Shown here one piece after another: positions 801 to 48,200 of a stretch of DNA of 64,000 bases. The notes under the pieces are model-generated. The model ran no database searches, had not been told where the DNA came from, and worked only from the letters and a program-made list of their open reading frames with translations. A program made the translations under genes and the position numbers. Origin of the DNA: Candidatus Cloacimonas acidaminovorans str. Evry (GTDB lineage Bacteria > Cloacimonadota > Cloacimonadia > Cloacimonadales > Cloacimonadaceae); contig NC_020449.1 in NCBI RefSeq assembly GCF_000146065.2, positions 1,302,001-1,366,000 of the forward strand. The letters run 5' to 3'. Position 1 is the stretch's first letter; each line of letters opens with the position of its first letter.

Positions 801-947
801 AAAAACAAAATGCAGCCACAAATTCATAGAAAAACGGTTCAGCACTTTCTTTATTTGTCAAGTAATCTGCTATCTCAATACACGGCAAACAGTAGCAAAA
901 TTGAATAAATATCATTCCCAAAGAAAATCCGAAATTATTTCAATTAA

Positions 948-1004
948 ATTCCGATATGACTCCCATATCATTCCCTTATCGCGATATGGGAATGATATGG
1001 GAAT
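948..1004. promoter_or_regulatory. Palindrome built from 11-bp-phased units (array 1)
   Basis: On the left, ATTCC/ACTCCC-type units begin at 948, 959 and 970, exactly 11 bp apart. On the right, two identical GATATGGGAAT units begin at 983 and 994. Together they form a near-perfect hairpin: CCCATATCATTCCC at 962-975 pairs with GGGAATGATATGGG at 988-1001, around a TATCGCGATA centre. The same inverted 11-bp layout with different words is found near 26531 and 37990. A protein-binding site or structured repeat is inferred. Confidence 0.6.
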
Positions 1005-1097
1005 CTCATCCGCCGTATAGCGCAAAAAAGCAGGAACTATTAAACAACAATTTTGGGAGAGAAATAGCGTAAATATTCTGGATGGCTTTCTGTTTTT

Positions 1098-21958: not shown

Positions 21959-22316
21959 ACGAGATGGATTTTTTTACAAAGAGAAAAAGAGATAAGGTGA
22001 GAAGAGTAATTTTTTACAAAAAGAAAAAGAGATAAAGAGAAAAAGTGAGAATTGTAATTTTTCACAAAGAGAAAAAGAGATAAAGTAAGAAGCTTAATTT
22101 TTCACAAAGAGAAAAAGAGAGAAAGAGTTAAAGTAAGAAGCTTAATTTTTCACAAAGAGAGAAAGAGATAAAGAGAAAAAGTGAGAAAGTGGGAAGAGTA
22201 ATTTTTTACAAAGAGAGAAAGAGATAAAGAGAAAAAGTGAGAAAGTGGGAAGAGTAATTTTTTACAAAGAGAAAAAGAGAGAAAGAGGGAAAAAGAAAAA
22301 AAGGAAAAAATAATAA
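21959..22316 (+). repeat. Imperfect AG-rich tandem repeat
   Basis: Six or seven units of roughly 42-62 bp, each beginning TAATTTTT(C/T)ACAAAGAG and continuing as GAAAAAGAGATAAAG blocks of variable number. The last full units (about 22138-22200 and 22200-22260) are nearly identical. There are no unique spacers, so it is not a CRISPR. On this strand it is almost free of C, and every frame would encode only Lys/Glu/Arg-rich or stop-interrupted peptides. Confidence 0.75.
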
Positions 22317-22335
22317 TTACTTCCCAAGAACTCAG

Positions 22336-22367
22336 AACTACGAACTACGAACTACGAACTACGAACT
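22336..22367 (+). repeat. 7-bp microsatellite (AACTACG) x 4.5
   Basis: Four perfect AACTACG units followed by AACT. The unit number could change by slippage. Confidence 0.8.
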
Positions 22368-22388
22368 TAAAAATAAATCTGCGTTTTT

Positions 22389-22443
22389 ATCTGCGAAATC
22401 TGCGGGAAACAATATCTGCGGGAAACACCATCTGCGGGAAATA
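22389..22443 (+). repeat. 16-bp tandem repeat (ATCTGCGGGAAACA)
   Basis: ATCTGCGGGAAACA-type units start at 22398, 22414 and 22430, with a truncated unit before them. They end about 60 bases before the methyltransferase start. Confidence 0.65.
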
Positions 22444-22506
22444 ACCTTGCCGGATATTCTTTTTCGCTTAGTTTATAAAAAGGGAAAACGAAATTAGGAA
22501 TTAAAT

Positions 22507-24069: not shown

Positions 24070-25440
24070 TTATCTCATATTTATATTATAATCGTTATGT
24101 TTAAGAACGGCAAGACATTCTATATGCCAGGTATTGGGAAACATATCAAAGGGTTGTAAAAAAACAACTTTATATTTCTCTCCGGCAATTAGTGTATTTA
24201 AATCTCGGGCAAGAGTCATAGGAGCGCAGCTTAAGTAAATAATTTGTTTAACTTCCGCTTGTATAATTGCTTCCAAAGCGTTTTGTTGAACTCCGCTGCG
24301 GGGAGGGTCCATAATAATTGTATCGGGCTTTTCCTTTATTAAAACAGCAGACAGGTTATCTTCCACTTTGCCTATGACAAAAGAAACATTTTTTAGCCCG
24401 TTCAGAACTGCATTTTCTTTTGCATCTTCAATTGCCTGAGGAAATTCTTCCAGCAGAATAACGCGTTTAACCTTATCTGCTAAAGAAAGTCCTATAGCTC
24501 CAATTCCGCAATAAGCATCCAGAATAACATTGTTACTATTAACAAAATCCTGTAGGAAGGAAATAATCATTTCCATTGTTCCGGTATTTATTTGCCAGAA
24601 ACTGCGGTAGTTAATCCTGAATTTCAAGCCGCATAAATTATCGTATAAATTCTCGCTTCCGTAGAGTAGCTTGGTTTCTTTACCTAAAATAACATTTTCT
24701 TTTTGGCGATTGATATTCTGGATAATACCTTTTATTTGGGGAAATTCGGTAGTCAGCTTTTTCACCAGAAGATTGGTAAAAGGGAGTTTTCCGCTTAAAG
24801 TAACAAGGATCACCAAAATTTGTCTGCCATCAGAATTACAGCGAAAACCGATATGTCTTAATTGACCTTTGTGTTCAATTTCGTTATAGGGCTCAACCTT
24901 CGCTTTAAGGCAAAATTCCATCAGGGAATTAGCCAGCTGATCAAAAATCGGGGGATGATTTTCACAAGTATTATGTTCTACTATTTGATGGGAAAAACGG
25001 GCAAACATTCCATAAGTGATTTTACCCGTTTGATAATTTTTCCCCACCGGCATAAAGACCTTATTCCGATAATGTTTTATTTGGGGAGAAGGAGCAGGAA
25101 AGTAAATTACATCCTTATCTATAAAAGGACTGAAGAGTTCCAGAAGCAACTGATTTTTTTGTTTCAGCTGTTCAGAATATTTTAACATCAGCCAATCACA
25201 ACCACCGCAGGGAATTTCTGCAGCAAAGGATGGGCATTGGACTTCAACCCGGGAATCCGAATAACTTATATATTTTGTCACTTTCCCGTAAGCATAATCC
25301 TTCTTTTCTATGGTAATATCAATATCTACAACATCGCCAACAGCAGTATAGGGTACAAAAATTGCCTTTCCTTCTGCATAAGCAATGCCAAAACCGCCCA
25401 TTGCCATTTTTTTAATTTCTAAATTCGGTATGTGTTTCAA
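24070..25440 (-). CDS. 23S rRNA (uracil-C5)-methyltransferase, RlmD/RlmCD/TrmA family
   Basis: It methylates C5 of a uridine in rRNA (or tRNA) using SAM. The 456-residue product has an N-terminal TRAM domain (AMGGFGIAYAEGKAIFVPYT), four iron-sulphur cysteines (about C69, the CGGC pair near 78-81, and CENHP near 161), the SAM-binding DAYCGIGAIGLSLA, the MDPPRSG motif and the catalytic SCAPMTLARDL cysteine. The start is TTG at 25440, overlapping the htpX stop (TTGA), with AGGA eight bases upstream. The exact target uridine (U1939, U747 or U54 of tRNA) cannot be told from sequence alone. Confidence 0.9.
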   Translation of the reverse strand: MKHIPNLEIKKMAMGGFGIAYAEGKAIFVPYTAVGDVVDIDITIEKKDYAYGKVTKYISYSDSRVEVQCPSFAAEIPCGGCDWLMLKYSEQLKQKNQLLLELFSPFIDKDVIYFPAPSPQIKHYRNKVFMPVGKNYQTGKITYGMFARFSHQIVEHNTCENHPPIFDQLANSLMEFCLKAKVEPYNEIEHKGQLRHIGFRCNSDGRQILVILVTLSGKLPFTNLLVKKLTTEFPQIKGIIQNINRQKENVILGKETKLLYGSENLYDNLCGLKFRINYRSFWQINTGTMEMIISFLQDFVNSNNVILDAYCGIGAIGLSLADKVKRVILLEEFPQAIEDAKENAVLNGLKNVSFVIGKVEDNLSAVLIKEKPDTIIMDPPRSGVQQNALEAIIQAEVKQIIYLSCAPMTLARDLNTLIAGEKYKVVFLQPFDMFPNTWHIECLAVLKHNDYNINMR

Positions 25441-26306
25441 AGCATTTCCTGAAGATGTTGAATGCGCACTTCAATAGGAGGGTGCGTAGCAAAAAGGGAA
25501 ATCCTTTTCTGATTATTGATTTTTGCCAGGGCATAAGAATCACTTCGTTTTTCCGGAACATAAGCATTGGCTATTTTTTTCAATGCTTCAATCATAGGAC
25601 CTGCACCTACCAACTTTGCCGAACCCGCATCAGCTTTAAATTCACGCCAACGCGAATATGCCGCAATAGGAATATTGGCAAGAAACATTAAAATGTTTTG
25701 CAGAACCATAATCACTAGCATATATCCAAAATAACCTAATCCGCCACCGCGATCATCACGCAATGCATTATCAATTAAGACCGTTAAAATCCTGGCAAAA
25801 AACATCACAAAGGTATTCACAACTCCCATCAGCAAAGTCATTGTAACCATATCTCCATTGGTGATATGAGTCATTTCATGTCCCGCTACAGCGGCTAATT
25901 CCTCTTCCGAAAGGCGATCTATTAAAGCCGAGGAAAAAGCAATCAAAGCATTGTTTTGGGAAGCTCCAGTGGCAAAAGCATTGGCATCCCTGCTATTATA
26001 AATACCAACTTCCGGCATTATAATATTTCTTTCTGCTGCCATACTTTCTATTGCAGAAAGCAAATAAGCAATTTTGGGATGCTCAATTCCCGGTTTTATA
26101 ATTTGAATTTTATAGCTTGCTTTTGCCATTGGCTTGCTTAAATACAGCGAAATTAACGAACCCCCCATTCCAAAAATAGCACATATAATCAGCAAACCCC
26201 ATAGGTCTTCCATTTTCAAACCCAGAAGACCTACTACAATTCCTAACACCAACATTACCAGAATGTTGGTGAGCAGGAAGATTCCCATTCGTTTCAGAAA
26301 ATTCAT
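25437..26306 (-). CDS. htpX: Zinc metalloprotease HtpX
   Basis: This membrane-bound M48B peptidase degrades damaged inner-membrane proteins. The 289-residue product has two N-terminal membrane helices, the zinc-binding HEMTH at residues 143-147, further hydrophobic segments near 155-215 and the third ligand in the EFKADAGSAKLVG region. Length matches E. coli HtpX. AAAGGAG precedes the ATG. It is first in a small operon with the RNA methyltransferase and the lipoprotein. Confidence 0.95.
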   Translation of the reverse strand: MNFLKRMGIFLLTNILVMLVLGIVVGLLGLKMEDLWGLLIICAIFGMGGSLISLYLSKPMAKASYKIQIIKPGIEHPKIAYLLSAIESMAAERNIIMPEVGIYNSRDANAFATGASQNNALIAFSSALIDRLSEEELAAVAGHEMTHITNGDMVTMTLLMGVVNTFVMFFARILTVLIDNALRDDRGGGLGYFGYMLVIMVLQNILMFLANIPIAAYSRWREFKADAGSAKLVGAGPMIEALKKIANAYVPEKRSDSYALAKINNQKRISLFATHPPIEVRIQHLQEML

Positions 26307-26670
26307 TTTACGCTCCTTTATTTATTTTTATCTTCTAAAATTATACCTTCAACCAATAAGAATATACTTATATCTTTTCCATTGCCATTATTATTTGTAG
26401 GCAAGCTAAGGCAAGGATTTTTTTTAAGTTCTGCGAACTCTTTGGCAAAAAAAGAATTTGCCAACCCATCTTTTCTTAACTGTATTATTTAGGATAAGAT
26501 AACTGCCTTTTACCCTTCTTCCTTAATAGCATTGCTTACCCATTGCTTACCCATTGCTAATGGCATTAGTATTGGGTGAGCAATGCTAAAGCAATTCTAT
26601 TAGAAAATAACTTCCTGTCTTGACAGAATTCTGCTTATTTAAAAAAGGGGTTTTATAAGGAAACCATCAA
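26307..26670. other. Divergent intergenic region with a phased-repeat array
   Basis: It lies between htpX (minus) and the MATE gene (plus). It holds the 11-bp-phased ATTGC/GCAAT array (26531-26595) and a TTGACA box at 26620-26625 without a good -10 at 17 bp. Confidence 0.6.
26531..26595. promoter_or_regulatory. 11-bp-phased inverted word array (array 2, ATTGC/GCAAT)
   Basis: ATTGC begins at 26531, 26542 and 26553 (11 bp apart; the first two are parts of identical ATTGCTTACCC units). The inverted word GCAAT begins at 26580 and 26591, again 11 bp apart. Arms 26528-26542 and 26573-26587 pair at 14 of 15 positions. It sits 75 bases upstream of the MATE gene and has the same layout as arrays at 948 and 37990. 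Confidence 0.6.
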
Positions 26671-28014
26671 ATGAAACACAGTAAAATTGAAATTCTGGAA
26701 AAGACACCTGTCGCCTATTCTATACTTTATCTTGCCCTACCCAGTATGCTAAGTATGCTGGTAAATATCTTATATAATTTAACGGATACTTTTTTTATCG
26801 GCAAGCTGAATGACCCTTTTAAGGTTGCCGGTGTCTCTATTGCTCTGCCTTATTATAATATGCTAATGGCGATTGCAGGAATTTTTGCCAACGGTGGAGC
26901 CAGCTATCTCTCCCGTCTTTTAGGGAAAAAAGATCTAAAAACAGCTCGGGAAACCACTACCACTGCTATTTTTACCGTAGCCATTGTATCAATATTTGCT
27001 GCTGCCTTGGGCGTTCTTTTTATTCCTACCTATCTTAAATTATCTGGTGCCAGTGCCTTAACTGCACTTTCTGCCAGGCAGTATTTAACAGCAATTTTTA
27101 TTGGCAGTCCGATCATAATGATTAAATTTACTTTAATTCAACTGCTTAGAGCTGAAGGTGCAGCTAAAGAAGCAATGTTGGGTTTGTTTATAGGAACGGG
27201 AGCAAACATTATTCTTGACCCGTTGTTCATTTTTACTTTTAAGATGGATGTAACCGGAGCTGCCATAGCTACAGTAATTGGTCAGGGTTTAGCAATGCTT
27301 TATTATATTTCTTATTACTTAAAAAAGAAGAGCTTAGCTAGTCCTGGAAGAAAGTATTTACACCCGCGTTGGTCTTGCTATAAAGAAATATTTGCAATTG
27401 GAATTCCTTCCTCTTTAAGCCAGGTTATGATGAGTATCGGAAATGCCATAAGTTTTAAGCTGGCTTCTGCTTACACGGATCATACCATTGCTGCCCTGGG
27501 AGTTGTTTCCCGAGTTTTTTCCATAGCTATTTTTGCTTTTATTGGCTTATCTATTGGTATTCAGCCGCTTATTGGTTTTAATTATGGAGCACAAAATTAT
27601 ACTCGTATGAAAAAAATAATCAAGATGTCCAATATAATCTGTTTAGGAATGTCTGCTGTCTTTACCTTGTTTTTTGCTCTTTTCCCGGGAGAACTAATTG
27701 CGGTATTTATTAAAGATAAAGCAATTATGAAAATTGGAACACAGATACTGAATGCCTATGTTTTTGCTATTCCGTTTGCGGGTTTGGGAATGATATTAAT
27801 GGCTGCACTTCAAGCAATGGGAAAGGCAATACCTGCTTTCATCGTCTCCTTATCGCGTCAGGGAATTGTCTATATTCCAATGTTATATTTGCTGAATTAT
27901 CTTTTCCAATTCAGCGGTTTGATCTATGCAATGCCTATTGCTGATGTGATAACTACCATTCTTTCATTCACATTTGTGTATCATATAACCAAACGGCTGA
28001 AAAGTTCCCCTTGA
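26671..28014 (+). CDS. MATE-family multidrug/cation exporter
   Basis: The 447-residue inner-membrane protein has about twelve hydrophobic segments in two MatE halves. The N-terminal half has LALPSMLSMLVNILYNLTDT and FFIGKLNDPFKVAGVSIALP. The second half includes GIQPLIGFNYGAQNYTRMKK. These are standard MATE signatures, nearest to the NorM/MepA-like subgroup. MATE proteins export cationic drugs or metabolites using Na+ or H+ gradients; the substrate here is unknown. AAGGA precedes the ATG. It is divergent from htpX. Confidence 0.9.
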   Translation: MKHSKIEILEKTPVAYSILYLALPSMLSMLVNILYNLTDTFFIGKLNDPFKVAGVSIALPYYNMLMAIAGIFANGGASYLSRLLGKKDLKTARETTTTAIFTVAIVSIFAAALGVLFIPTYLKLSGASALTALSARQYLTAIFIGSPIIMIKFTLIQLLRAEGAAKEAMLGLFIGTGANIILDPLFIFTFKMDVTGAAIATVIGQGLAMLYYISYYLKKKSLASPGRKYLHPRWSCYKEIFAIGIPSSLSQVMMSIGNAISFKLASAYTDHTIAALGVVSRVFSIAIFAFIGLSIGIQPLIGFNYGAQNYTRMKKIIKMSNIICLGMSAVFTLFFALFPGELIAVFIKDKAIMKIGTQILNAYVFAIPFAGLGMILMAALQAMGKAIPAFIVSLSRQGIVYIPMLYLLNYLFQFSGLIYAMPIADVITTILSFTFVYHITKRLKSSP

Positions 28015-36772: not shown

Positions 36773-37591
36773 TTATTGATTCAAAATTTTGCCTAAAGCC
36801 AGATAAAACCCGTCCAGAGTAAGACCTTTATCAATAGTATTAATTTCACTAAGGTAGGGTTTTATCAAAGAAGACATACCACCGGTAAGGATTGTTTGAA
36901 ATGGTTTTAGTTGTGAATATTGCTCTTTGATTTTAGCAATGAATGTATCCAGCATAAAGGAATGACCGTAAATTATTCCTGAAAGCATTGCTTCCGTAGT
37001 ATTCAAACCCAGAAGAGCAGTAGGAGGAACAAGCTCAATTTCATATAGTTTTGCTGCTTTACTGAATAAACTTTCAGCTCCAATTTTTATTCCGGGAGCA
37101 ATTATAGCGCCTTCAAACATTCCTTCTTGGCTGATAAGTTCAATCGTTGTGGCTGTTCCCAAATCTATTATGATTGAAGATGTCCGATATTTCTGCCAGG
37201 CAGCATAAGCATTGGCAATTAAATCTGCCCCGATAAAAGAGGGATTATCCACTCTGAAACTGATTCCTAAAGGACTAAGTGCATTTATTTCATACACTTC
37301 TGCCTGTATATATTTGCTGCATAAATGTTTCCAAACCCTTGTAAGCTCGGGAACTACACTGCCTAAAACAATATAGCGAATATCTTTTAGCCCGAGTTTA
37401 TAACCTTCCGGTAGAGTTGTGGACTCCAGCAAACTGCCGAGCAGAATATAATATTCGTCAGAAGTATTTTCCCGACTGGATTTTAGACATACCGTCCAAA
37501 TGGATTTACCTTTCAAGTATATGGCACATACGATATTTGTATTTCCTATGTCCACTACCAGAATCGGCTCTTGCAATAATAAATTACGCAT
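36773..37591 (-). CDS. coaX: Type III pantothenate kinase
   Basis: It phosphorylates pantothenate, the first step of coenzyme A synthesis, in the cytosol. The 272-residue ASKHA-fold protein has the phosphate-binding VVDIGNTNIVCAIY at the N-terminus, GADLIANAYAAWQ near residue 120, and the second phosphate motif IIDLGTATTIELI (family usually DxGTATT). GAIIAPGIKIGAESLF and ILTGGMSSLI are also conserved. A TTGACA box is at 37678-37683, with AATTAT at 17 bp or TATAAT at 26 bp. The SprA-like gene follows in the same direction. Confidence 0.95.
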   Translation of the reverse strand: MRNLLLQEPILVVDIGNTNIVCAIYLKGKSIWTVCLKSSRENTSDEYYILLGSLLESTTLPEGYKLGLKDIRYIVLGSVVPELTRVWKHLCSKYIQAEVYEINALSPLGISFRVDNPSFIGADLIANAYAAWQKYRTSSIIIDLGTATTIELISQEGMFEGAIIAPGIKIGAESLFSKAAKLYEIELVPPTALLGLNTTEAMLSGIIYGHSFMLDTFIAKIKEQYSQLKPFQTILTGGMSSLIKPYLSEINTIDKGLTLDGFYLALGKILNQ

Positions 37592-37989
37592 AATCCCTGC
37601 TCAATATCATTTCCTGTAAAGATAATAAATCATACGCAAATAGCCATTATAGTTATAATTCTTAAAGAGCATTATTCTGTCAATAGATTTCTGTATTGGA
37701 ATTGATAAAAGAAAGTTATCTTAAATCCCTAAGAATATTCCGAAGATAAGTTCAGGAACAGAGTTTTGTTCAATTTTTTAGAGCTTCAATTTCGGGAAAT
37801 ATTCATAAAATTTCAATTCCGGAAGGGCAATTATATTTCAGAGATATTAGTGCCTGCAAAAAAAGGATAACGAAAAAGTATTTAGTGCCTTTATTTATTA
37901 TATAACCCCCATCTAATATAATACTTTAGCCCTATATTTTGTCCATAAGTGCAGAAATATGCATAATTAATTGTTATTTAGTCAATTAA

Positions 37990-38057
37990 GTAACAACACC
38001 GTAACACTTCCGTAACACTTCCGTAGTTCCGTTACGGAGTTGTTACTTGAGTGTTAC
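37990..38057. promoter_or_regulatory. 11-bp-phased inverted word array (array 3, GTAAC/GTTAC)
   Basis: GTAAC begins at 37990, 38001 and 38012. The inverted word GTTAC begins at 38031, 38042 and 38053. All steps are exactly 11 bp. Two perfect CCGTAACACTT units are included. Arms 37988-38005 and 38031-38048 pair at 17 of 18 positions. This is the clearest of the three arrays. Confidence 0.7.
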
Positions 38058-38137
38058 TTTATCATAATGGGGTAATGTATGTATAAGAGGAAGGAAAATA
38101 ATACCGGAAAAATCATAAATGCAATCTTTATTTTTAG

Positions 38138-38184
38138 AAGGGCTTACGCACACATCGCTATCATTTTATCGCCCTAACGGGTTT
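38138..38184 (-). repeat. Dispersed 47-bp-family element, copy 4
   Basis: AAGGGCTTACGCACACATCG, then CTAT, and at the other end ATCGCCCTAACGGGTTT. It is a diverged copy of the elements at 2199 and 2425. Confidence 0.7.
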
Positions 38185-38279
38185 TGAGGAATCTAAACCT
38201 TTTAAATCCTCTCAACCCTTTCAACCAATTTTACCAATCAAATCTGTGCTATCCGTGTTATCTGTGAGAGCTTATTATT

Positions 38280-40460
38280 TTATTTACTTTCAAATTGCCA
38301 ACTGCCATCCCAAGTATCCCAATCAATAATTTCGCAACGATTCAACATAATTCTACTTGGTTCATCCGAGGGTAAAATGGCTAAGACCTCTTCCAAAAGG
38401 GTTTTTGCCTGGTTTTTTTGTCCAGCAAGCATTAAATCTAAGGCGGTTTCATATTTACGATACGCAGAAATTAACTCCGGTTTATTTTGCATATTTTCAA
38501 GTGTATCAATAATTTCATAAATTTCACAAGGATTTAATTTACCCTTCACTTTTACCTTATCCAGTTTACGACAAAAGACGGTATTGCTAACTGCCCGATA
38601 AGTGTATTCATCAATAATAATAGTGGTAAGATAATATTTATTCAATCCTTCCAGGCGGGAACCGAAATTCATTTTATCGCCAATGCCGGTATAATTGAAA
38701 ATTCTATCGGAGCCAATATTTCCTACAATTACTTCTCCTGTAGCAATACCAATACCGATACGGAAATTTTTCAGGACAGGATGATCTTTATATTCCTCTT
38801 TGATATTAAGAACAATTTGGCGAATAGCAAGAGCGCTTTTTACGGCATTTTCTTCAAAACCGGGATAAGTTACGGGCGCTCCAAACAAAGCTAAAATAGC
38901 ATCTCCTATATATTTATCCAGAGTTCCGCGATGAGTAATGATGGTCTGTGTTGCCCGATTGAAATAGTTATTCATAAATCCCGTTATTTCAGAAGGAGTT
39001 AGCTGTTCGCAAAAAGAAGTAAAATTGCGCACATCAACATACATAATACTGATATACTTCTTTTCTCCACCTGCTTTCAATTTTTCCGGTTCCTTCATAA
39101 TTTCCTGGATAACTTCCGGTGAAACATAATGCTCAAAAGCATCCCGCACCATTCTTTTTTCTTTACCCTGCTCATGTGCTTGAGTAATAAACATTGCTAA
39201 AAAGCCCAAAACCCAAGGAACAAGAGTGTAATTATAATTATATATATAACTCTCTTTCACATAAAGCAAATAAACGGCAGGAATAGAAAGCAGAGAAATA
39301 AATAAAAAAACGCTAATAGATACAAATGGCTTACTGCGAGGAATAAAAATAGCCATAATGGTCAAAGCCAAAATGTTAATTATTAGTAAAATACGGGAAT
39401 CTACCCAACGCACATAATTTTCTTCCAGCACATTCCTGATAAATGTGGAATGTAATTCCACACCTGGAAAGGAGTTGTCCAAAGGTGTTATTTTACTGTC
39501 CTTCAATCCGTAGGCAGAAGTCCCTACTAAAATAAGCCGGTCTTTAAAATAACCGGGAGGAATTCTATGAAAAAGGACATCGGAAAAGGAAATATAACGA
39601 AATGTTTTATCAGGACCCCCTTGTCCATAATATTTAAAATAAAACAAACCATCGGGACTAAGAGGCAATTCACTCACAATATTTTCTCCGGAAAGCAGCT
39701 GACAATTGCGGTTCACCTTTATTTGATCAACACCTAATAAATCTAAGCAAATCTGCATACTGAAATTCAGATAAGCATTATTGTTATATTGCAAAAAAAG
39801 GGGATAATCGTGAATTTTTCCTGAAACATCAGGTTCAATATTGGCAAAACCAATTCCTCTTGCTGAATTTGTATATTGAGGAATGGGAGGTATAGGATAT
39901 TTTAACTGTAAAAAATGTTTGGGCTGAACTTTCCAGGCAGTTAATTTATCGGGAAGAACTCCCGTATAAGAAGGATAATCACTATTAAACATAGATAAAT
40001 AAACCATTCCGGCATTTTCTATAGCTGCAGCAAAACTATCATCAGTACTTAAAGCATCCATAATTATATCCGGATTTGCCGTCAGACCTTCAAATTCAGG
40101 ACGCAACCTTTCTCTGGCATATCCCTGAATGCTGTCGCTTTCCGTAAAGAAAACATCAAAAGCAATAGCAATGGGTTCATCGGCAGATAAAATATTAACT
40201 AAATCGGCAAAGAACAAACTGGGCCAGGAAGAAAACTGTCCCAATTCCTTGATGCTTTTTTCATCTATATCCACAATGCAAATTTGGTCATAAACACCTT
40301 TATATTCACTGTAGGTAATAGCATTGTGAACTTCCAGAATAGTATCATAAATACTTAAATCCAAAGTTCTTAATAAAATACTGATAACGGGCAGTTCAGG
40401 CAATAAAATGGAAATAAGCAATACTGCTAAAGCAATCAGGAAATAACGCAAACGGGACAT
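38280..40460 (-). CDS. CHASE2-domain class III adenylate cyclase
   Basis: The 726-residue membrane protein would make cAMP in response to a periplasmic or envelope signal. Order: N-terminal membrane helix, extracytoplasmic CHASE2 sensor (about residues 30-340; ICIVDIDEKSIKELGQFSSW and AIAFDVFFTE are typical), three membrane helices (about 350-420), the cyclase domain (about 460-640) and a short helical tail. Metal-binding aspartates are in MYVDVRNFTSF and KYIGDAILALFGAP; the substrate-specifying Lys-Asp pair appears in LDKYIGD and NYTGIGDKMNFGSRLE, favouring ATP over GTP. The ATG at 40460 is used; the ribosome site is weak. It is the last gene of a three-gene operon with FecR-like and NHL/TPR proteins. 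Confidence 0.9.
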   Translation of the reverse strand: MSRLRYFLIALAVLLISILLPELPVISILLRTLDLSIYDTILEVHNAITYSEYKGVYDQICIVDIDEKSIKELGQFSSWPSLFFADLVNILSADEPIAIAFDVFFTESDSIQGYARERLRPEFEGLTANPDIIMDALSTDDSFAAAIENAGMVYLSMFNSDYPSYTGVLPDKLTAWKVQPKHFLQLKYPIPPIPQYTNSARGIGFANIEPDVSGKIHDYPLFLQYNNNAYLNFSMQICLDLLGVDQIKVNRNCQLLSGENIVSELPLSPDGLFYFKYYGQGGPDKTFRYISFSDVLFHRIPPGYFKDRLILVGTSAYGLKDSKITPLDNSFPGVELHSTFIRNVLEENYVRWVDSRILLIINILALTIMAIFIPRSKPFVSISVFLFISLLSIPAVYLLYVKESYIYNYNYTLVPWVLGFLAMFITQAHEQGKEKRMVRDAFEHYVSPEVIQEIMKEPEKLKAGGEKKYISIMYVDVRNFTSFCEQLTPSEITGFMNNYFNRATQTIITHRGTLDKYIGDAILALFGAPVTYPGFEENAVKSALAIRQIVLNIKEEYKDHPVLKNFRIGIGIATGEVIVGNIGSDRIFNYTGIGDKMNFGSRLEGLNKYYLTTIIIDEYTYRAVSNTVFCRKLDKVKVKGKLNPCEIYEIIDTLENMQNKPELISAYRKYETALDLMLAGQKNQAKTLLEEVLAILPSDEPSRIMLNRCEIIDWDTWDGSWQFESK

Positions 40461-40474
40461 CAATTCGCTTACTT

Positions 40475-48009: not shown

Positions 48010-48200
48010 CTTTTAGTTTATTTCGTTATTTTTAGAATGAAAAGGAGAAATAGACATAGATGGACCAGGTACACCTATCCTGTAGCTCAATTCTTCACCT
48101 TTTCACATTGGAAGGCAAATCCGTTTTCAGATAAACCCTATCGGCTAACATCCCTGCCGGAGAAGTTTAGGATTGTTAGCTCGGTGACAAAACAACCTTT
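48010..48200 (-). promoter_or_regulatory. Possible structured 5' leader of the P5C dehydrogenase gene
   Basis: The transcribed leader would be about 190 nt. A stem GCTAACA (48174-48180) / TGTTAGC (48144-48150), extended by TCC/GGA across one bulged base, encloses a loop containing TAAAC. That loop could pair with GTTTA downstream (48132-48136), giving a pseudoknot-like fold. A second hairpin (GGATAGG-TGTA-CCTGGTCC) follows nearer the gene. I do not recognise it as a known riboswitch class. Confidence 0.35.

Follow-up and report, generated by a model that had tools for sequence, protein, structure and literature searches.

Dispersed inverted arrays with an 11-bp step and exchangeable words share one exclusion distance along the chromosome of Candidatus Cloacimonas acidaminovorans

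The chromosome of Candidatus Cloacimonas acidaminovorans carries three families of short intergenic arrays in which words repeated at 11-bp steps in one arm face their inverted counterparts in the other. The families have unrelated words, they show no covariation between their arms, and their members avoid one another along the chromosome irrespective of word. Related genomes bear arrays of the same geometry built from a diversity of other words, the outer ends of the elements are common to several genera, and a sister species has an array with a different word at the locus of one of the arrays described here. We tentatively read these elements as chromosome-wide, dyad-symmetric binding arrays for a putative oligomeric DNA-binding factor, which would mark the chromosome at intervals; protein binding, oligomerisation and a role in chromosome organisation are what these properties lead us to propose.

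Results

Three inverted arrays in the window

The window is a stretch of 64,000 nucleotides, positions 1302001-1366000 of the single-contig, 2,246,820-bp genome (the own genome, G000). The LeuS encoded in it has its closest named relatives exclusively in Cloacimonadota. Its most regular array, of family A, has its words, GTAAC three times and GTTAC three times, exactly where the initial annotation had placed them (Table 1). The further statement that every step is exactly 11 bp holds within the arms of array A, but the inner step, from one arm to the other, is 19 bp. The dyad axis lies at position 38029, and the true symmetry thus extends over four positions per arm. Arrays at 26531 and 948 had been described as having the same geometry. 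Both are outliers for a word-blind detector that scores 11-bp periodicity in both arms together with arm complementarity: the three named arrays score 59, 56 and 55, compared to 45 for the next best place in the window and at most 43 in three plain shuffles of it. Their words, however, are less perfect than those of array A. Array B has ATTGC at 26531, 26542 and 26553 and exact GCAAT only twice (26580 and 26591), and array C has TTCCG, CTCCC and TTCCC at 949, 960 and 971 and GGGAA at 988 and 999. Shuffled sequence, proposed as a control in the initial annotation, did not do equally well: a strict 3+3 inverted 11-bp array of any word was found in 0 of 100 Markov shuffles, and the real window has array A. 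A chance origin of the arrays is ruled out by the detector scores, the shuffles and the excess of period-11 arrays in relatives described below.

Table 1. Arrays, neighbouring genes and other features of the window.
Feature	Window position	Strand	Remarks
Family A element, window copy	37960..38075	.	40 own-genome copies
Family A core as given in the initial annotation	37990..38057	.	
Family A words	37990, 38001, 38012; 38031, 38042, 38053		GTAAC facing GTTAC
Family A degenerate fourth words	38023; 38064		GTAGT at 38023; second at 38064
Family B element	26520..26605	.	40 own-genome copies
Family B units	26530, 26541, 26552		CATTGCTTACC units facing G(C/T)AAT words; outer TTCTTCCTTAATAG
Family C element	940..1010	.	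13 own-genome copies
Family C units	949, 960, 971; 988, 999		TTCC(C/G)ATATC-type units facing GGGAA words
Type III pantothenate kinase gene	36773..37591	-	Left of array A; PF03309, E 1e-51
CHASE2 / adenylate-guanylate cyclase gene	38280..40463	-	Right of array A
M48 peptidase gene	25437..26306	-	Left of array B
MatE-family transporter gene	26671..28014	+	Right of array B
Second, unrelated dispersed repeat	38125-38293		Adjoins array A; contains ATCTGTGCTATCCGTGTTATCTGTGAG; many copies in the relative G002 and, in the own genome, within long intergenic stretches
Low-complexity tandem repeats	21970-22445		One intergenic region; long AAAGAGAA-type repeats with 48-56-bp periods, then GAACTAC x4.7 and a 16-bp repeat
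Moco/tungsten riboswitch aptamer	48080-48198	-	Rfam RF01055

Copies are intergenic and vary by whole 11-bp units

BLAST against the own genome returned 40 copies of family A (GTAAC), 40 of family B (ATTGC) and 13 of family C (TTCCC), at least 93 in all, and these 93 were taken with 2.5-kb flanks and aligned. In the family alignments the consensus words are conserved and the spacers less so. Within the arms there are 305 steps of 11 bp (A 79+77, B 75+48, C 15+11) and, in all three families, none of 10 or 12 bp. The inter-arm distance is nearly constant (19 in 39/40 copies of A, 17 or 28 in B, 17 in 13/13 copies of C), and unit number varies by whole 11-bp units, the B copy at 729078 having one fewer and several A copies one extra. 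A repeat that expands by 11-bp steps, as suggested in the initial annotation, fits this variation among arrays, both the whole-unit changes and the 78- and 89-bp elements found in relatives (see below), but not the origin of the arrays. Further scans of the own genome covered the surroundings of the copies together with a sample of the gaps; they revealed no additional word family in the 140 kb sampled from large gaps, and a profile search of 674 kb of own sequence added no copy except one A-type relic.

All 93 copies are intergenic, and their flanking genes are convergent in 25 cases, divergent in 25 and codirectional in 43. These mixed orientations rule out a fixed gene context such as a terminator or promoter role would have. 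They also bear on the possibility that the arrays are operators of ordinary transcription regulators, with one large regulon per word. Dyad-symmetric intergenic sites would suit such a role, and boxes of the PhoB/OmpR type are similar to direct repeats stepped by 11 bp; yet the 25 copies between convergent genes, the lack of any fixed orientation or distance to a start, and the different words at the same genes in close relatives all count against it, and a regulon offers no reason for different words to exclude each other over 9 kb. Operators are therefore already disfavoured, and we regard them as quite improbable. Among 594 ORFs beside the arrays no DNA-binding gene family recurs, and on this ground a cognate regulator encoded next to the arrays was rejected.

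The arms do not covary (A z=2.6, mainly from outer flank columns; B z=-3.2; C z=1.3), and no array has a match in Rfam. The absence of covariation favours duplex protein sites over a hairpin. An RNA hairpin, terminator or other structured transcript would be in keeping with the partial complementarity of the arms and with the A-form RNA helix, which has ~11 bp per turn, but absent covariation and the absent Rfam match rule out a conserved hairpin or RNA, and the arrays have no fixed strand or context either, making a structured transcript highly improbable.

Two loci of the own genome have additional features. A 1.4-kb duplicated block (97% identical) bears family C arrays at both of its sites (L025 and L061, ~203230 and ~1224483). 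At ~160743-161900 (L024 / L314) a putative insertion-sequence end, TCCTAAATAAGTTGACAC, abuts an array and is followed by an rve transposase; the same putative end abuts an array in the relative G005 (L144:88).

Arrays of different words share one exclusion distance

Families A, B and C interleave along the 2.25-Mb chromosome, and the minimum gap among the 93 copies is 9,227 bp, a value reached in 0 of 10,000 random placements; the coefficient of variation of the gaps is 0.67 compared to 0.98 for random placements. No cross-family pair lies closer than 9 kb, whereas 21.1 such pairs are expected and 5,000 independent rotations of the families never gave fewer than 6. Minimum gaps are alike within and between families (AA 12.1 kb, BB 10.6 kb, AB 9.2 kb). 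In this genome, long intergenic regions can be as little as ~1-3 kb apart, far closer than 9 kb, which shows that the exclusion rule is not imposed by gene layout and rules out that the spacing is inherited from the layout of these regions. Across the 674 kb of own sequence covered by the profile search, the 9-kb rule has a single exception, the A-type relic near 1770170 (L084). This diverged relic, TTTAACGATTC..., lies ~1.5 kb from a B copy.

Array spacing is also non-random, with other words, in G005 (P ~0.012) and G041 (P ~0.010); the samples from G001 and G019 were too sparse for the spacing test. Exclusion that is independent of the word implies that A, B and C are handled as a single class. 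This class consists either of spaced chromosomal sites under selection or of a mobile element with target immunity via shared ends.

Relatives carry the same geometry with other words

By BLAST, family A was present in only 2 of 40 relatives, G001 (2 matches) and G002 (at least 24 listed), where the copies are diverged with TAAC and the 11-bp step retained; family B was found in 0 of the 40. With the word-blind detector, arrays that keep this geometry but are built from other words came to light in G001, G005, G012 and G016, and examples of the words in relatives are TTAATCAAGCG, TTCCCTTATCG, ATTGCCCTATC, TTACGCATGAA, GATCACTAGGG and GTCCAGCTTAT. An independent sample of 539 kb, made up of LeuS-centred stretches of named Cloacimonadota genomes, held 11 arrays of period 11, compared to 0 in shuffled sequence, 2 at period 10 and 0 at period 12. 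Seven detector matches in outgroups were AT-rich or otherwise non-array sequence. The initial annotation had proposed such a scan of relatives regardless of word and had named a lack of similar arrays there as a finding that would speak against it; period-11 arrays were found. Its proposition that spacing and inversion are kept while words change is borne out by the three families of the own genome and the many other words of relatives, and the same arrays support, at the level of sequence, the suggestion of a family of putative binding arrays with a shared layout, for which a multimeric or repeat-domain protein would be the candidate partner. In G005, arrays lie at the very ends of contigs 1, 3 and 4 (L141:118, L143:2 and L144:88). 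This suggests that short-read assemblies break at arrays, and that counts from draft genomes are lower bounds.

Elements in several genera have shared outer ends and a length of 11n+1

A purine-rich word is enriched in the outward flanks on both sides of the arrays. AGCAAGG occurs in 10 of 31 arrays of relatives compared to 0 at 400 bp distance, CAAGCAA in 19/40 A copies compared to 0, and AAGGAAG in 27/40 B copies compared to 2. A search for the ends only, with the interior left free, was run on 60 relatives and returned elements of exactly 89 bp (8x11+1) in G005, G007, G008 and G019 and of exactly 78 bp (7x11+1) in G041, with the reversed control pattern nearly silent. Single matches in more distant genomes are mostly of irregular length and look like chance or coding sequence. 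The G019 elements consist, in order, of TTCCTTGCTTA, three 11-mers, one base, three 11-mers and TAAGCAAGGAA, and conservation is gone within ~10 bp outside their borders; the periodicity detector alone misses them because their interior 11-mers are too diverged. Terminal inverted repeats common to the copies are clear in G005, G007, G008, G019 and G041 and weaker in G000. Several genera share, as their outermost unit, a purine-rich word of the AAGCA(A/G)GGAA type; the roughly three inner words of each arm are specific to the genome. Neither these outer ends common to word families, nor the dispersed high-copy nature of the arrays, nor their mutual exclusion over ~9 kb was foreseen in the initial annotation.

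Units of 89 or 78 bp that are dispersed, sharply bordered and closed by shared inverted ends are what one would expect of a non-autonomous mobile element of miniature size, similar to a MITE or a REPIN, whose two short, facing ends would be arrays of transposase sites and which would be moved in trans, the 9-kb exclusion being target immunity via the shared ends. Lineage-specific amplification, with B in 0/40 relatives, and presence or absence at collinear sites of G000 and G001 point the same way, as does hard-core spacing of the kind that target immunity would give, a likeness in pattern only and not in process. However, target-site duplications of 3-8 bp are not above shuffled pairing, the exclusively intergenic location of the 93 copies speaks against such an element, and immunity across unrelated words needs the ends, yet those of A, B and C have drifted apart in G000. 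The transposase families tested are patchy or missing as well: Y1/RAYT (PF01797) is absent from G019 (99% complete, at least 14 elements), rve from G001, G002 and G019, and DDE_Tnp_Tn3 from six of six genomes. RAYT, rve and Tn3 transposases were accordingly rejected as the common driver, none being common to all array-bearing genomes tested. Arrays are not found around the RAYT loci taken from G000, G001, G002 and G041; one RAYT gene of G005 has 11-bp arrays upstream. Altogether, we consider a mobile element the chief alternative and a serious possibility, though on balance a doubtful one.

On contig 5 of G005 (L145:16640-16900 / L308) a long head-to-tail 11-bp run, ATTGAGCAAGG / ATTAAGCAGTG, lies directly upstream of a RAYT (Y1 transposase) gene. 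Its units resemble the conserved outer array word, and an inverted 11-bp array is nearby.

Same site, other word

In G001, the sister species, a TTAATCAAGCG array lies between the same kinase and cyclase genes as window array A. In G002, a TTAATCAAGCG array lies beside the kinase gene, after which synteny breaks, and synteny with both G001 and G002 ends between the MatE-family gene and window array B. Other collinear sites, in ~0.55 Mb of G001, have arrays with a different word (L030, L062 and L073) or the same word (L105), those at L030 and L105 being weak (score 46), and six (L048, L051, L053, L054, L078 and L084) have no detectable array in G001. Thus, any single site is dispensable. Arrays prefer long intergenic regions (10/12 in regions of at least 400 bp), and because of this preference the coincidence of array positions with G001 is only modestly above expectation (7/12 compared to 28/97 overall; 5/10 compared to 10/27 in the class of at least 400 bp).

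Synteny between G000 and G001 is broken at 26/37 array sites, a count that includes one misplaced site (L066), compared to 3/11 control intergenic sites, which form a small control. This bias would agree with recombination sites, in which inverted arrays around a short centre would allow a site-specific recombinase to reshuffle 10-25-kb segments, and so would the ends of synteny in G002 at both window arrays A and B and in G001 at array B. However, on the G001 side few of the broken junctions have an array, there are few controls, the same bias is explained by homologous recombination between copies or by a preference for operon borders, and a recombinase was not identified. Recombination sites therefore appear improbable.

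Discussion

Because 11-bp units follow one another along each arm, the recognition words come to lie on nearly one helix face. In the reading that we tentatively favour, that of phased binding arrays marking the chromosome, an oligomeric factor, or paralogues that differ in word specificity and have a common quaternary geometry, would bind the arrays and might assemble cooperatively from the dyad outward. The arrays would then mark or anchor the chromosome every ~10-25 kb, as nucleoid domain, loop or segregation sites. The words would spread as dispersed copies and give way to others in the course of evolution, with geometry and spacing remaining. Several observations sit uneasily with binding arrays: the absence of a recurrent DNA-binding gene family beside them, the six collinear sites of G001 that have no array, the modest conservation of position once the preference for long regions is allowed for, the diverged relic so close to a B copy, and lineage-specific amplification, which for family B fits a selfish element too. 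It is also conceivable, if rather unlikely, that the sites are set by geometry (11-bp phase, dyad, 11n+1 length) and mutual distance, with replaceable words in an array that persists along with its spacing and, in some cases, its locus; eukaryotic centromere repeats are likewise replaced in evolution.

The arrays have counterparts of several kinds. REPINs, which are inverted REP doublets moved by RAYT transposases (PMC3116915), are nearest in layout, being likewise short, inverted, extragenic doublets in tens of dispersed copies and several sequence classes per genome. The arrays differ from them in that G019 has no RAYT, no array lies within ~1.5 kb of the G000 RAYT loci taken, the arms are phased runs of 11-bp words without covarying stems, and the classes exclude each other over 9 kb; the RAYT link and hairpin that define REPINs are lacking. 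With MITEs the arrays have in common that they are short and non-coding, with inverted ends and lineage-specific amplification, but they show no target-site duplication, their size comes in 11-bp quanta, their interior words are exchangeable, and no parent transposon was found among the families tested (Y1, rve, Tn3). Like elements with target immunity (Tn7, Mu, Tn3), the arrays avoid the surroundings of existing copies, again in pattern rather than process, but the array-bearing genomes do not have in common the rve-type or Tn3-type transposase by which such elements are judged.

At parC of plasmid R1, two 11-bp repeats are the minimum that ParR requires, and related ParR systems use different words with specific binding (PMC9426499); with their own direct ~11-bp repeats, the arrays thus find in ParR-like binding a useful analogy. 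They differ from parC in their tens of chromosomal copies, their inverted arms and their exclusion distance, and among neighbouring genes no ParM/ParR was seen adjoining them. The distributed chromosome-organising sites of matS/MatP, SlmA and parS/ParB are single short palindromes of fixed sequence. The arrays resemble these in their many intergenic sites along the chromosome and their proposed structural role, but differ in that sequence varies while geometry and spacing are kept. A literature search on Cloacimonas repeats or evenly spaced 11-bp inverted repeats, with a scope that did not extend to the 2008 Ca. Cloacimonas acidaminovorans genome paper, returned nothing relevant. The arrays are not explained by any known repeat family among those tested and are best filed under dispersed extragenic inverted repeats, with unusual rules.

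As a rule, bacterial repeat families are recognised by their sequence. In these arrays the sequence changes but the geometry and the spacing stay, and one exclusion distance applies to sequences that are unrelated. The cause is either a cell factor that reads phase and distance along the chromosome or a mobile element with immunity across sequence classes; each would be new. The arrays could serve directly as baits with which to find the factor, in a phylum whose members are difficult to grow in culture.
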